A stretch of DNA of 64,000 nt from Ianthella basta (Eukaryota > Porifera > Demospongiae > Verongiida > Ianthellidae): assembly GCA_964019415.1 (NCBI GenBank), contig OZ025869.1, positions 782,642-846,641 of the forward strand, written 5' to 3'. The first letter of the stretch is position 1. Each line of letters starts with the position of its first letter. The position numbers were made by a program, and so were the translations under genes. Under the pieces are notes generated by a model, which searched no databases, had not been told where the DNA came from, and saw only the letters and a list, made by a program, of their open reading frames with translations. This document shows positions 54,085 to 61,215 of the stretch, piece after piece.

Positions 54085-57000
54085 TTAGTCCTCCATGTCC
54101 TCATCGTCATAGTTGATTGCACAAATCGGGTTATCGATCACCACACCAGGCATCTCCATGGTGTTATACAAGGCAGTAGTAGAGTCATCAGCCTCTGCAC
54201 CAAACTTGGTTGGCAACACCTGATAGAAGTTAGTCTCTTTGTCCGTATCTGGGACTGCTTCCAAGAAGAGTGGATTCACCTTACTCATAGCCCCATTTTC
54301 TGACGGCCACTCATGCTCATCATCAAAATTGAGTGACTCAATGTCATCCACGCCAGAAGTTGCACAACAGCGCTTTGCCCTGCAGCAAGTTATAAGATTC
54401 ACATTTATCACACTCATCTTTGCCTTCACACACATAAAACACCATTCACACGTAGCATGCATCTGTGATGGATGTGGACGCAATGAGGATGCGCCTGTTT
54501 ATTCTGGAAACCGTGGGACTTGTCAGGAATATGCCCTGTCCTCATTAGAGAGGTGTGCTTATTTCAGAGGCACTTAATACACAGCTCTATGTACTGTAGC
54601 TGGGACAGTGGGCACTATCCTCATTAGGGAGGTGGCCATTTTACATGGACAGTTTTGTACACATCTCTGTAGCCAGAAAGTAGGCACAGCCCTCATCAGA
54701 GAGGTGCATGTCCTGAAGTCAAGACATTCTGTCAGACACATGTGTGAAATGGGCTCACCTACGGCAGCGGCGCCGGCGCCGGCGACACCAGCCGCACCAG
54801 CCGCACCAGCCGCAGCAGCAGTCACAGTAACAGCAGCACCATACAACTGCAATCACCAGTGTCAGCAAGCAGCATACCAGTATCACAACCACTATAATGA
54901 CAATGTACCACACAGTTACTTCGATATATCCAACTGGAAATGTCTGCAAAATAGAAGGAAAATGGCAGTTAAATTGTCAAAGACAAGTGACATGGTTAGA
55001 ATGGCTAATCAGTTGTCACATGACACCCTTGTGATCATGGCTACCTGTAGCACAGCGAAGCTAGCAAGGAGGTTGCAGCTGCATACGACTTCTCCACTCT
55101 GCAATTGGCCCTTCTTTGTGCAGCCATCTCTAGACCAGGCACCCAGGCCATCTGCACATCAAAGTGAAAGTACTGATGCACACAAATACTATTACACATG
55201 CACATAGACATATACACTTACTGCTGGCACTCGGCTTCCAGTAGTAACAGTCAAGTGTGCTATAATGTGCAGACTGCCACAAGAGAAGGGGTATATTGTG
55301 GAGAGAGAGAGAGAGAGAAGTGGAGCAAAGGAGGAACAATGAGAGACAAGAGGAAGACAGAGGCAGTTAACGTATGTCAATGCAGGTCATAATAGATAGT
55401 CAACAGGATGTGATTTGTTGCTGTAAGGTTACTGCAAGTGGTAGGTATGATCCATTGTCCCACAGCAGTCAGCTATTGTTGACAAAACTGCACCCATCAA
55501 AAGTGTACAGCTTATGCAATTACCTGTGGCACCTTGAATGTGATTTCAATGGCCTCCACACTACCATTGATGGTGCAGTTGCCAATGGTGATGGTGAATA
55601 TATGGCTGACAATGCGGCTGTTCTGGTTAACATCCCCTTCCACTATTGCTCGAAACAGTGCTATCTTACTAATTACTGAAGAGACGAAAGTTGATGAGTT
55701 GCACACCATTTCGTTGAACACGTGTTTGAAAAGTAAAGCTTTCACACTGCCATTAAATCCTGAACCAAATGAGATGCGGAATCCTTCATCTGGCAGGTTC
55801 TCTCTGTCAGCAACCATGCCCGAGACTGCAAAGTTTGTTCTGTTTTGCATCCAAGAGCTGCCAGGATTTGCTCCTTCTAGGGCATCTTTGCCAATTTCAT
55901 CCAAAGCCCGCACCAGCCTAAATGTGATAGAGAAAGAGACTATTCATAACCATTACTACATCCCATGCAAACCCAATTTACACTATGTCTCTGTCAATTG
56001 GTACTATCTGTAATGCTCTTACAGTAGACTATTGTATGATTGGGCTGCAAGGAATGTTAAAACGATTGCTATGTGAATAGACGTAACTTACACAGTAGCT
56101 GCATTTGTGTTCTGTTGTGTCATTGTCAGGACATCATTGGGGGTGGAAAGAGTGTCATCGAGACTGTCTAGGAGAATTTGAGTTGGCCACTGAAGTGGAA
56201 ATAACACACATGCATCCTGTATGAGCTAGCTACATAAGGGCTTCACTTGGGTATTGCAGAATCTTGCATTCCCGTGCATCAAAATGACAAAGTTACACAT
56301 ATAGAAACTCAATTGCATTTGCGTAAATTGCAAAAATACCTCCTAAGAGCCAACACCACTAAATACACATGCACTTACACTCTGTGTGTCATCAGTGGCC
56401 AGAACCTCCACTGCCTTTAGTGTGATAGCAACATCACCAGCTTCCAGTGGCTCTGTTCTTGGCGCTGCTAGCTTGTTAAGCAGGTCACTGGGCGAGTAGA
56501 TCTACATAAGAAAAGTTGTACCCACTGGAAAGTGGCCACCCCTGAGCTGCTATAAGCAAACACACAGATCTGCAAATACGGCTCACACACACCTCACACA
56601 AGTCCTTCACTGCTGTTGCACTACACCCACTGCTGTCTGTGGACAACCAGATCCCTTCAACGGAGCAAGACCTTGTGGCATATATCTCACTGGTGAGGTC
56701 AAGCGTTGAGTTACAAGGGCAGGGGAGGCGGACGCTCTGCCCAGCTGTTGTCTTGGACCAGGCAAAGATGTGGCCTAGCTCCGAATTGTATTTTGACTCA
56801 GCAGGACAGGAAGCTGATGGGGAAGGGACAAATGCGTTGGTAATAATGGTGCAATTGGGATGTATTAAAACAGCACAGTAAATTGTGTACATATGCGTGT
56901 TTCAGGCACGTGCATGTGCGTGCATAAAGTGTGTGGACATCACAAACCCTCAGCACATACCTATTTCTGTTATAGGCACTGCATGAGAAGGAGTAGAAAC

Positions 57001-60000: not shown

Positions 60001-61215
60001 ACAACAACCAGAGGTGTAGTCACAGTAGCCATTGTTGCAGGAATCAGCACATGGGACATAGGGCTCAGGGTCTGGAGAAGATGCATGTCATGAAGAGGAA
60101 CACTAATGAGCAGCTCAAGACTAAGTACTGCATACTGCAACAGCTAATGCATCAGCCATTCAGCTTACAGAGCAGCATAGATCAACTACTGTATAGAGTA
60201 GTGTTCACACTTACTAAAAATTTAAAACTTCACTAGTGGGGGATAGTGGTTCTCATTTGTCAATTTAACCAGACATTTCAACCCAATCTAAAACCAACTT
60301 TCATCAGTGGTAATGTGATATATTACTACTGATGGAAGGATGAAGACCCTAGATCGGGTCAGGATGTCTGGTTTAAGTGACAAGTAGCATCTGTCTATCC
60401 TTATTCCCCCCTCCCCACCACCCTACCCTCCCCACCCCCCCGACTAGTGAAGTTCCAAGTTTGTAGTATGCGTACATCTAGCCACTCAGAGATTTAAAAG
60501 TAGTGATAGACCACACAGTATGGACAATAGCATTTTACATGTACTTTCTGTCAAAGACAGATTGTCCTGCAACATCACTTGAAACCCACCAGCAGTTTCT
60601 GTCTCGCAGTATAGTCCGGCATAACCAGTAGGGCAGACACAGGCATCTCCAGTGAAGATACCACCATTTAGGCAGGGACAAGTGGTCGTGGACTCAGCTG
60701 CAGTTGTACACAGCACAGATACATTTCGGTACCATTCAAGCTAGCTTGCTTTTCCCCCTTCTGCACACACTCTAAACTAGCAAAAAGTTGCCTAATAGCC
60801 CATGAATTGTAAATTGAAGGTTACAACAATAGCAGTAGTGCCATTCCATCAGCTAGCAGAAATGAATACATAACTATACCAATTTGATGCTTTAGAAGCT
60901 TCAGTAATTCACATTACCTCATACACTTTCCCCTGCCATCTCCTTTACCATGTAACAACAGTTTAGTATCAACAAGAAGCTACTACTACTATCACTACCA
61001 GATATGTTAACTCACCATCATGTTGAGTTGCACCTCCTACATGTAAGCAGTGGGAAGAAGAGAAATGTCTAGCTAGCTAACAGCACTATATGCACTCAAT
61101 CCTCATATTAGCCAAAGCTCCTACAGTATTTACATAGCATACAGCACTCACCAAGGGAAACGAACAGGAGGCAGAAGACTCCAAAGTTTGCCACCTTCCA
61201 GAAGTTCCTCTCCAT
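54085..61215 (-). CDS. R3: EGF-FN3-HRM-GAIN-GPS receptor with a single TM
   Basis: 22 exons (minus): 61152-61215, 61016-61036, 60590-60697, 59955-60071, 59626-59751, 59441-59542, 59141-59227, 58814-58939, 58605-58709, 58338-58364, 57794-57901, 57405-57686, 57140-57235, 56961-56978, 56593-56813, 56379-56501, 56092-56189, 55524-55917, 55222-55273, 55045-55151, 54759-54943, 54085-54379; about 953 residues with all phases consistent. The order is signal peptide (VFCLLFVSLG), about eight EGF modules, FN3, another EGF, HRM (FAWSKTTAGQ, LPCPC, ATRSCSVEGIW), GAIN-like region, GPS (CYYW, AWSRDGC, CSCNLLASFAVL), one TM helix (VWYIVIIVVVILVCCLL), a Cys/Trp/Arg-rich juxtamembrane part and a tail with FYQVL and LYNTM. 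The HRM-GAIN-GPS set is that of adhesion GPCRs, yet no 7TM part follows before the stop. EGF and FN3 exons equal those of R1/R2 in length and phase. Confidence 0.8.
54380..54758. repeat. Degenerate dispersed repeat in last R3 intron
   Basis: Three loosely similar units (cctcattagagaggtg, cctcattagggaggtgg, cctcatcagagaggtgc), each followed by acac.tctctgt/ctgtagc-type words, spaced about 65-110 bp. Similar ttagagaggtggc/ttagacaggct words recur at 62570-62720 and 63700-63800. Confidence 0.6.
54759..54943 (-). other. R3 TM and Cys/Trp/Arg-rich juxtamembrane exon
   Basis: After the helix the exon encodes CCCYCDCCCGWCGWCGWC and then RRRRRRCR. The underlying DNA is a GC-rich trinucleotide-like repeat (ggctggtgc three times, then cggcgc). 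The exon ends with AG at a gtgagc donor and joins the tail exon in frame. Clustered cytosolic cysteines could be lipidated or form a metal site; this is a guess. Confidence 0.75.
55045..55273 (-). other. GPS motif split over two exons
   Basis: Exons 55222-55273 (…LDCYYWKPSAS) and 55045-55151 (NGLGAWSRDGC…CSCNLLASFAVLQ) together rebuild all landmarks of the GPCR proteolysis site: two Cys-Trp anchors, GC, CxCN and FAVL. The usual H-L-[S/T] cleavage triad is replaced by L-L-A. Confidence 0.85.
58144..58281. repeat. (AC)n microsatellite in R3 intron
   Basis: About 69 uninterrupted CA units in the intron 57902-58337. Confidence 0.97.

Follow-up and report, generated by a model that had tools for sequence, protein, structure and literature searches.

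The 64,000 nucleotides of the demosponge Ianthella basta analysed here (assembly GCA_964019415.1, contig OZ025869.1, positions 782,642 to 846,641 of the forward strand; hereafter the window, with positions counted from its first letter) carry on the minus strand, at 61215-54085, a gene, R3, which we read as a dedicated single-pass relative of the adhesion G-protein-coupled receptors (adhesion GPCRs) and as belonging to a set of similar genes encoded in this genome. We put the probability of this reading, which is drawn from the DNA, at roughly 0.85. The original prediction had proposed an ectodomain of adhesion-GPCR type on a protein with a single transmembrane (TM) helix (1TM) for R3; the evidence supports this architecture for R3, and 15 other loci among those read show it too.

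Rebuilt independently from the DNA, R3 has 22 predicted exons and encodes 953 amino acids between an ATG at 61215 and a TAA stop at 54087-54085. Each of its 21 introns has GT-AG borders and each junction is in phase, which confirms the earlier claim that the 22 exons join in phase. The modules follow in the order EGF repeats, FN3, EGF, HRM, GAIN, GPS, one TM helix, a tail of about 100 residues and the stop. Exon 1 (61152..61215, on the minus strand as are all others) supplies the start codon and a hydrophobic N-terminus, by eye a likely signal peptide. Exons 2-11 (57794..61036) comprise eight EGF-like exons, recognised by eye from their cysteine pattern, and microexons of 21 and 27 nt; exon 12 (57405..57686) is the FN3 module, to which those of a paralogue on C23 and of two further receptor genes at about 34.1 kb and 42.4 kb of the window are related, and exons 13-14 (56961..57235) hold another EGF-like repeat, with a linker exon of 18 nt. 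The HRM (hormone receptor) domain, marginal in its Pfam score, lies in exon 15 (56593..56813), GAIN subdomain A in exons 16-17 (56092..56501) and GAIN subdomain B in exon 18 (55524..55917). The GPS is divided between exon 19 (55222..55273; 52 nt, with C-Y-Y-W), which is required because the phase 0 in which exon 18 ends does not fit the phase 1 in which exon 20 begins, and exon 20 (55045..55151), in which N-L-L-A-S-F replaces the x-H-L-[ST]-x-F of relatives at the cleavage site. About a dozen residues then lead into the TM helix of exon 21 (54759..54943), which is followed by a Cys- and Arg-rich juxtamembrane stretch that continues into exon 22 (54085..54379; cytoplasmic tail and stop codon), with 15 cysteines within residues 795-875.

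The claim that one TM exon, a tail exon and a stop follow the GPS of R3 was thus borne out, and 7TM exons were not found in the window. Six peptides from the 7TM exons of this genome gave no tblastn match in the window at E<=0.05, and none at the same threshold in 19 loci elsewhere (15 single-TM, four of neither class; eight of the 19 only 2-3 kb long as probed). The control yielded 44 matches and recovered 9/9 7TM loci; three of these (L031, L033, L040) had supplied the peptides, and the independent control therefore consists of six loci. Among 110 minus-strand open reading frames of at least 30 amino acids at 43300-54084, 12 exceed a hydropathy of 1.6; these are isolated, and none is recognisable by eye as a 7TM exon. 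No 7tm_2 match lies in the window among the matches listed genome-wide (119 rows checked), which lends weak support. On the hydropathy reading and the tblastn search of the window, we rejected the idea that R3 is a 7TM gene some of whose exons had been overlooked.

The identity of the ectodomain was examined with profiles and with solved structures. A Pfam scan of the whole R3 protein at E<=1 returned EGF_TEN (86.6 bits) and EGF in five stretches (24.8 bits) for the EGF region, and GPS with 46.0 bits against a cut-off of 22.5 at residues 750-793, so the GPS assignment withstood its profile check. The FN3 exon scores 22.9 bits for Interfer-bind (cut-off 21) and 16.8 for fn3, below the cut-off of 25. 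Searched alone against PDB, R3 matches ADGRG2 across GAIN-B and GPS (1.9e-9) and ADGRL3 across HRM and GAIN-A (1.1e-4). A profile built from R3 and from three paralogues assembled by hand (A1) matched 39 different sequences in PDB at E<=0.01, with ADGRG2 the best (2.8e-19) and with ADGRL3 (1.7e-18, and 1.5e-17 over profile positions 12-334) and ADGRG6 (1.3e-16) also among them. Because of these matches to solved adhesion GPCRs, by the profile and by R3 itself, the predicted GAIN domain is well supported, as had been proposed, and the predicted HRM fairly so. The HRM assignment stands in part: the C-terminal fragment reaches 26.7 bits against a cut-off of 26.2 and is backed by the ADGRL3 match, but the score is marginal and HRM is unlisted for the whole protein. 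Among relatives, the GPS of three reaches 46-49 bits in Pfam and HRM scores 23.6 (C23), 13.2 (C3, a fragment) and 27.1 bits (L013). R3 as a polycystin-like protein was ruled out by the absence of PLAT, REJ, PKD and channel domains from the Pfam scan, and R3 as a receptor kinase by that of a kinase domain; a kinase match is likewise missing from the three relatives scanned with Pfam.

Our data further suggest that R3 is not a solitary case. We counted at least 150 GPS matches in the genome (150 of 208 candidates scored). Among the matches listed, 89 of the 150 are followed on their own strand, at no more than 8 kb, by a 7tm_2 match and 61 are not; this comparison used 119 listed 7tm_2 rows, which omit most rows of an array on C12 and include that belonging to the only GPS listed there (2685121). 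That array (C12:4781447-5038004) is dense, with at least 33 7tm_2 matches, most of them nearly full-length in single long frames, the longest of 2431 aa. Thirty of the 61 loci were read (R3, L013, and sets of 20 and 8 loci), with TM and tail exons assigned by visual inspection of open frames and splice sites. Of these loci, 16 including R3 show a single TM exon after the GPS, nine are 7TM-like (L020, L022, L028-L033, L040) and five could be assigned to neither class (L017, L026, L036, L037, L038). The single-TM loci lie mostly in clusters on C23 (771279, 787304, 781925, 796907, 858764, 867642, 901681, 934215) and C6 (5659774, 5615967, 5767198, 5802325, 5900325), with C3:9355349, C19:3180780 and R3 elsewhere. 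A tail exon with its stop was located in 15 of the 16, the exception being C23:858764 (L023). Two C23 genes (L025 at 787304, L024 at 771279) are near-identical, and their tail exons differ in-frame, with about 141 and 36 residues, respectively. Downstream of the GPS gene C23:781925, long reverse-transcriptase-like retrotransposon frames were seen by eye (L027, C23:773425-782632).

The best HRM and the GAIN-B matches of R3 also lie mostly at single-TM loci. Of the 15 best among R3's 28 non-self HRM matches at E<=0.01, 13 lie upstream of single-TM loci, one upstream of C6:5840893 (neither class) and one at C3:9143540, where a GPS is unlisted; R3's non-self GAIN-B matches, four in number, are all at single-TM loci. 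Going by these rankings of HRM and GAIN matches, the single-TM genes may have a single origin.

Intron phases may indicate what that origin was. The single-TM genes are compatible with a GPS exon that ends in phase 0, a TM exon that runs from phase 0 to phase 2 and a tail exon that picks up in phase 2. These TM exon phases fit the 16 single-TM genes as well as the TM1 exons of 9/9 7TM loci read; splice sites were picked by hand among scored candidates and are in several genes, including L040 and L023, not the sole or top-scoring ones. In the predicted R3 gene, the HRM-GAIN-GPS module ends at one TM exon with TM1-like phases, after which come a basic junction and a short tail. As the TM phases are common to both gene classes, we infer that the set would descend from a GAIN-7TM receptor in which a tail exon took the place of the TM2 exon behind the TM1 exon. 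Alternatively, the change may have run in reverse, from a single-TM form that came first.

A near full-length paralogue on C23 (domains from about 776.7 to 771.3 kb, TM and tail to about 770.1 kb), found by tblastn of R3, repeats R3's domain order of EGF, FN3, EGF, HRM, GAIN and GPS. Over six aligned pieces (375 codons) the two share 57% identity, with 0.30 nonsynonymous (dN) and 1.15 synonymous (dS) substitutions per site; the resulting dN/dS of about 0.26 is rough because dS is high. Together with the 22 open in-phase exons, this value led us to reject R3 as a pseudogene. Across GPS, TM and tail, five close pairs gave dN/dS of 0.08, 0.30, 0.32, 0.39 and 0.51, three of these values resting on 5-13 substitutions.

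R3 departs from most of its relatives in the cleavage motif, in which L-L-A takes the place of H-x-S/T and both residues are missing. H-L-S/T is kept in 14 of the 16 single-TM loci; H-L-G is found at C6:5900325 and also at C6:5840893 (neither class), and the GPS at C19:3180780 (L041, 3180600-3182600) has H-L-T and is without C-x-C. In GAIN cleavage the histidine serves as base and the Ser/Thr as nucleophile, and the motif alone is insufficient (PMC13062082). R3 is predicted to stay uncleaved because L-L-A replaces H-x-S/T, and it is probably unable to self-cleave; cleavage of members that keep H-L-S/T is possible. EMR2 cut down to one TM helix is reported to yield an N-terminal fragment that resists Endo H and to arrive at the cell surface, its cleavage not being quantifiable (PMC12488864); the single-TM GAIN layout thus appears workable. 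The original prediction was silent on R3's missing cleavage motif, as it was on the precedent of the 1TM form of Cirl discussed below.

Taken further, we think it somewhat probable that this animal lineage made the adhesion-GPCR ectodomain into a separate, expanded single-pass class in which GAIN cleavage and force are read without a 7TM core, and that R3 has in addition dropped cleavage and become covalent and non-shedding. The EGF/FN3 stalk would bind a ligand on a cell surface or in the matrix, and the GAIN domain would be the force-bearing element beside the membrane. Members with H-L-S/T could self-cleave and hold their ectodomain non-covalently, so that pulling could release it; in R3, the chain would stay covalent and the GAIN domain would only unfold or serve as a spacer. 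Since R3 has no 7TM core to take a tethered agonist, output would run through pairing of the ectodomain with 7TM adhesion GPCRs (compare the Drosophila 1TM Cirl), through the tail, or both. The R3 tail contains YQVL, YNTM and NPL, the last also present in the tails of L018, L019, L021 and L039, and the tail of the C23 paralogue has several tyrosine stretches; these tyrosine and N-P-L motifs may recruit kinases or scaffolds. The original prediction had the tail report tension or binding, which it may do; no Pfam domain was found in the R3 tail at E<=1.

Several explanations of what R3 does have to be weighed. On the one hand, the main role of the 1TM proteins may be to form pairs, by way of the ectodomain, with 7TM adhesion GPCRs of this genome and to tune their G-protein signal, the tail being secondary, which we hold as a tentative option somewhat short of even odds. 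It agrees with the 89 GPS matches that have a listed 7tm_2 downstream, with an R3 tail unmatched elsewhere in the genome, and with the Cirl 1TM and 7TM isoforms, which appear to heterodimerise and to signal through Go (PMC13197933). The six-peptide tblastn search speaks against it: 7TM exons were not found beside the single-TM genes, and their ectodomains are therefore not those of a 7TM partner made by the same gene. On the other hand, R3 may be an adhesion or force receptor whose tail itself recruits kinases or scaffolds, a possibility to which we likewise assign about one chance in three. YQVL, YNTM and NPL in R3, the tyrosine stretches of the C23 paralogue, NPL in four other tails and the dN/dS below 1 over GPS, TM and tail in the five close pairs all favour it, but motifs so short may arise by chance, and the R3 tail has neither a Pfam domain nor a match elsewhere at E<=1.

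An unlikely alternative is that R3 is a pure adhesion molecule or decoy, with the GAIN domain as a structural spacer and no signalling of its own. This would suit the missing cleavage motif of R3 and a tail without Pfam domain, but 14 of the 16 single-TM loci keep H-L-S/T, and the module is therefore not decayed in general. We consider it very improbable that R3 is an ordinary 7TM adhesion GPCR with TM2-TM7 exons elsewhere or lost in assembly; R3 is known from prediction alone and five of the 30 loci read fell in neither class, but the stop lies within a long tail exon, the window search found no 7TM exons, and the layout is repeated at 15 further loci, as well as in a paralogue whose domains follow the order of R3.

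Some observations weigh against R3 as a dedicated single-pass receptor within a genome-encoded set. All exons of R3 are predictions from sequence, with which splicing to distant 7TM exons is compatible, and the phases of TM1 exons may agree for other reasons. The reading covered 30 of the 61 GPS matches that have no 7tm_2 listed nearby, and at L013, L034, L035, L039 and L041, which were read 1-2 kb past the GPS, the single-TM call rests on the tail stop. The set is not uniform: two of its 16 members (R3, C6:5900325) are without H-x-S/T and C19:3180780 is without the C-x-C of the GPS. The C23 paralogue has seven EGF repeats found before FN3 against eight in R3, and no first exon was found for it. 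HRM scores are low in the relatives as well as in R3, and an AlphaFold2 model of exon 18 alone without alignment was uninformative (mean predicted local distance difference test 35.7). Finally, the R3 tail matched only R3 itself in the genome at E<=1, which argues against a strongly conserved tail function.

GAIN domains in non-GPCR proteins have been the subject of older work. Polycystin-1 has eleven TM segments; its family (PKD1, REJ) shares with R3 a GAIN/GPS upstream of membrane segments, whereas R3 has one TM helix and none of the PLAT, REJ, PKD or channel domains. With the adhesion GPCRs (ADGR, class B2) R3 has in common the EGF/FN3 stalk, the HRM (optional in that family), a GAIN domain that includes the GPS, and a TM exon placed and phased like TM1; in contrast, it has a short tail in place of TM2-TM7, which were not found in the window, and its GPS lacks the usual, though not universal, H-x-S/T. 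A further comparison is with Drosophila Cirl (latrophilin), whose 1TM form appears to associate with its 7TM form and enables mechanosensing (PMC13197933). Both this form and R3 carry a GAIN ectodomain on a single TM helix with a tail. However, the 1TM Cirl arises by splicing from a 7TM gene (PMC13197933), whereas no 7TM exons were found at R3, and the R3-type genes are best read as comparable to it but encoded in the genome as separate genes. In the literature searched, limited to one collection, we came across no description of single-pass GAIN/GPS receptors forming a gene family.

Two further putative EGF-FN3 genes of the window (about 33224-35424, minus strand, and about 41000-43240, plus strand) have by eye one TM and a short tail. 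Their FN3 region is related to that of R3 (43-45% identity to residues 294-425), but no GPS is among the matches listed for them. Collagen-repeat and fibrinogen-C genes stand among the receptor genes (10228-11448, 39014-39838, 44426-45607 and 49863-51047, plus strand); three of these frames have Pfam Collagen matches and one a Fibrinogen_C match of 246 bits, and their products are possible ligands or matrix partners of the receptors. At 20593-32702 the window contains a tandem array that spans 12 kb and is made up of about 1218 copies of a 10-base unit (consensus CTCATCTTGC; 80% matches); it shows a strong strand skew and includes stretches read as N.

The GAIN/GPS module is understood mainly as a device that delivers a tethered agonist to a 7TM core. 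If our reading is true, separate single-TM genes that mostly keep the cleavage motif would imply that the module has uses independent of such a core, and the sponge genes would be a gene-encoded counterpart to the 1TM Cirl that the fly makes by splicing. This raises the question of what role GAIN cleavage plays where no agonist pocket exists in the same protein.

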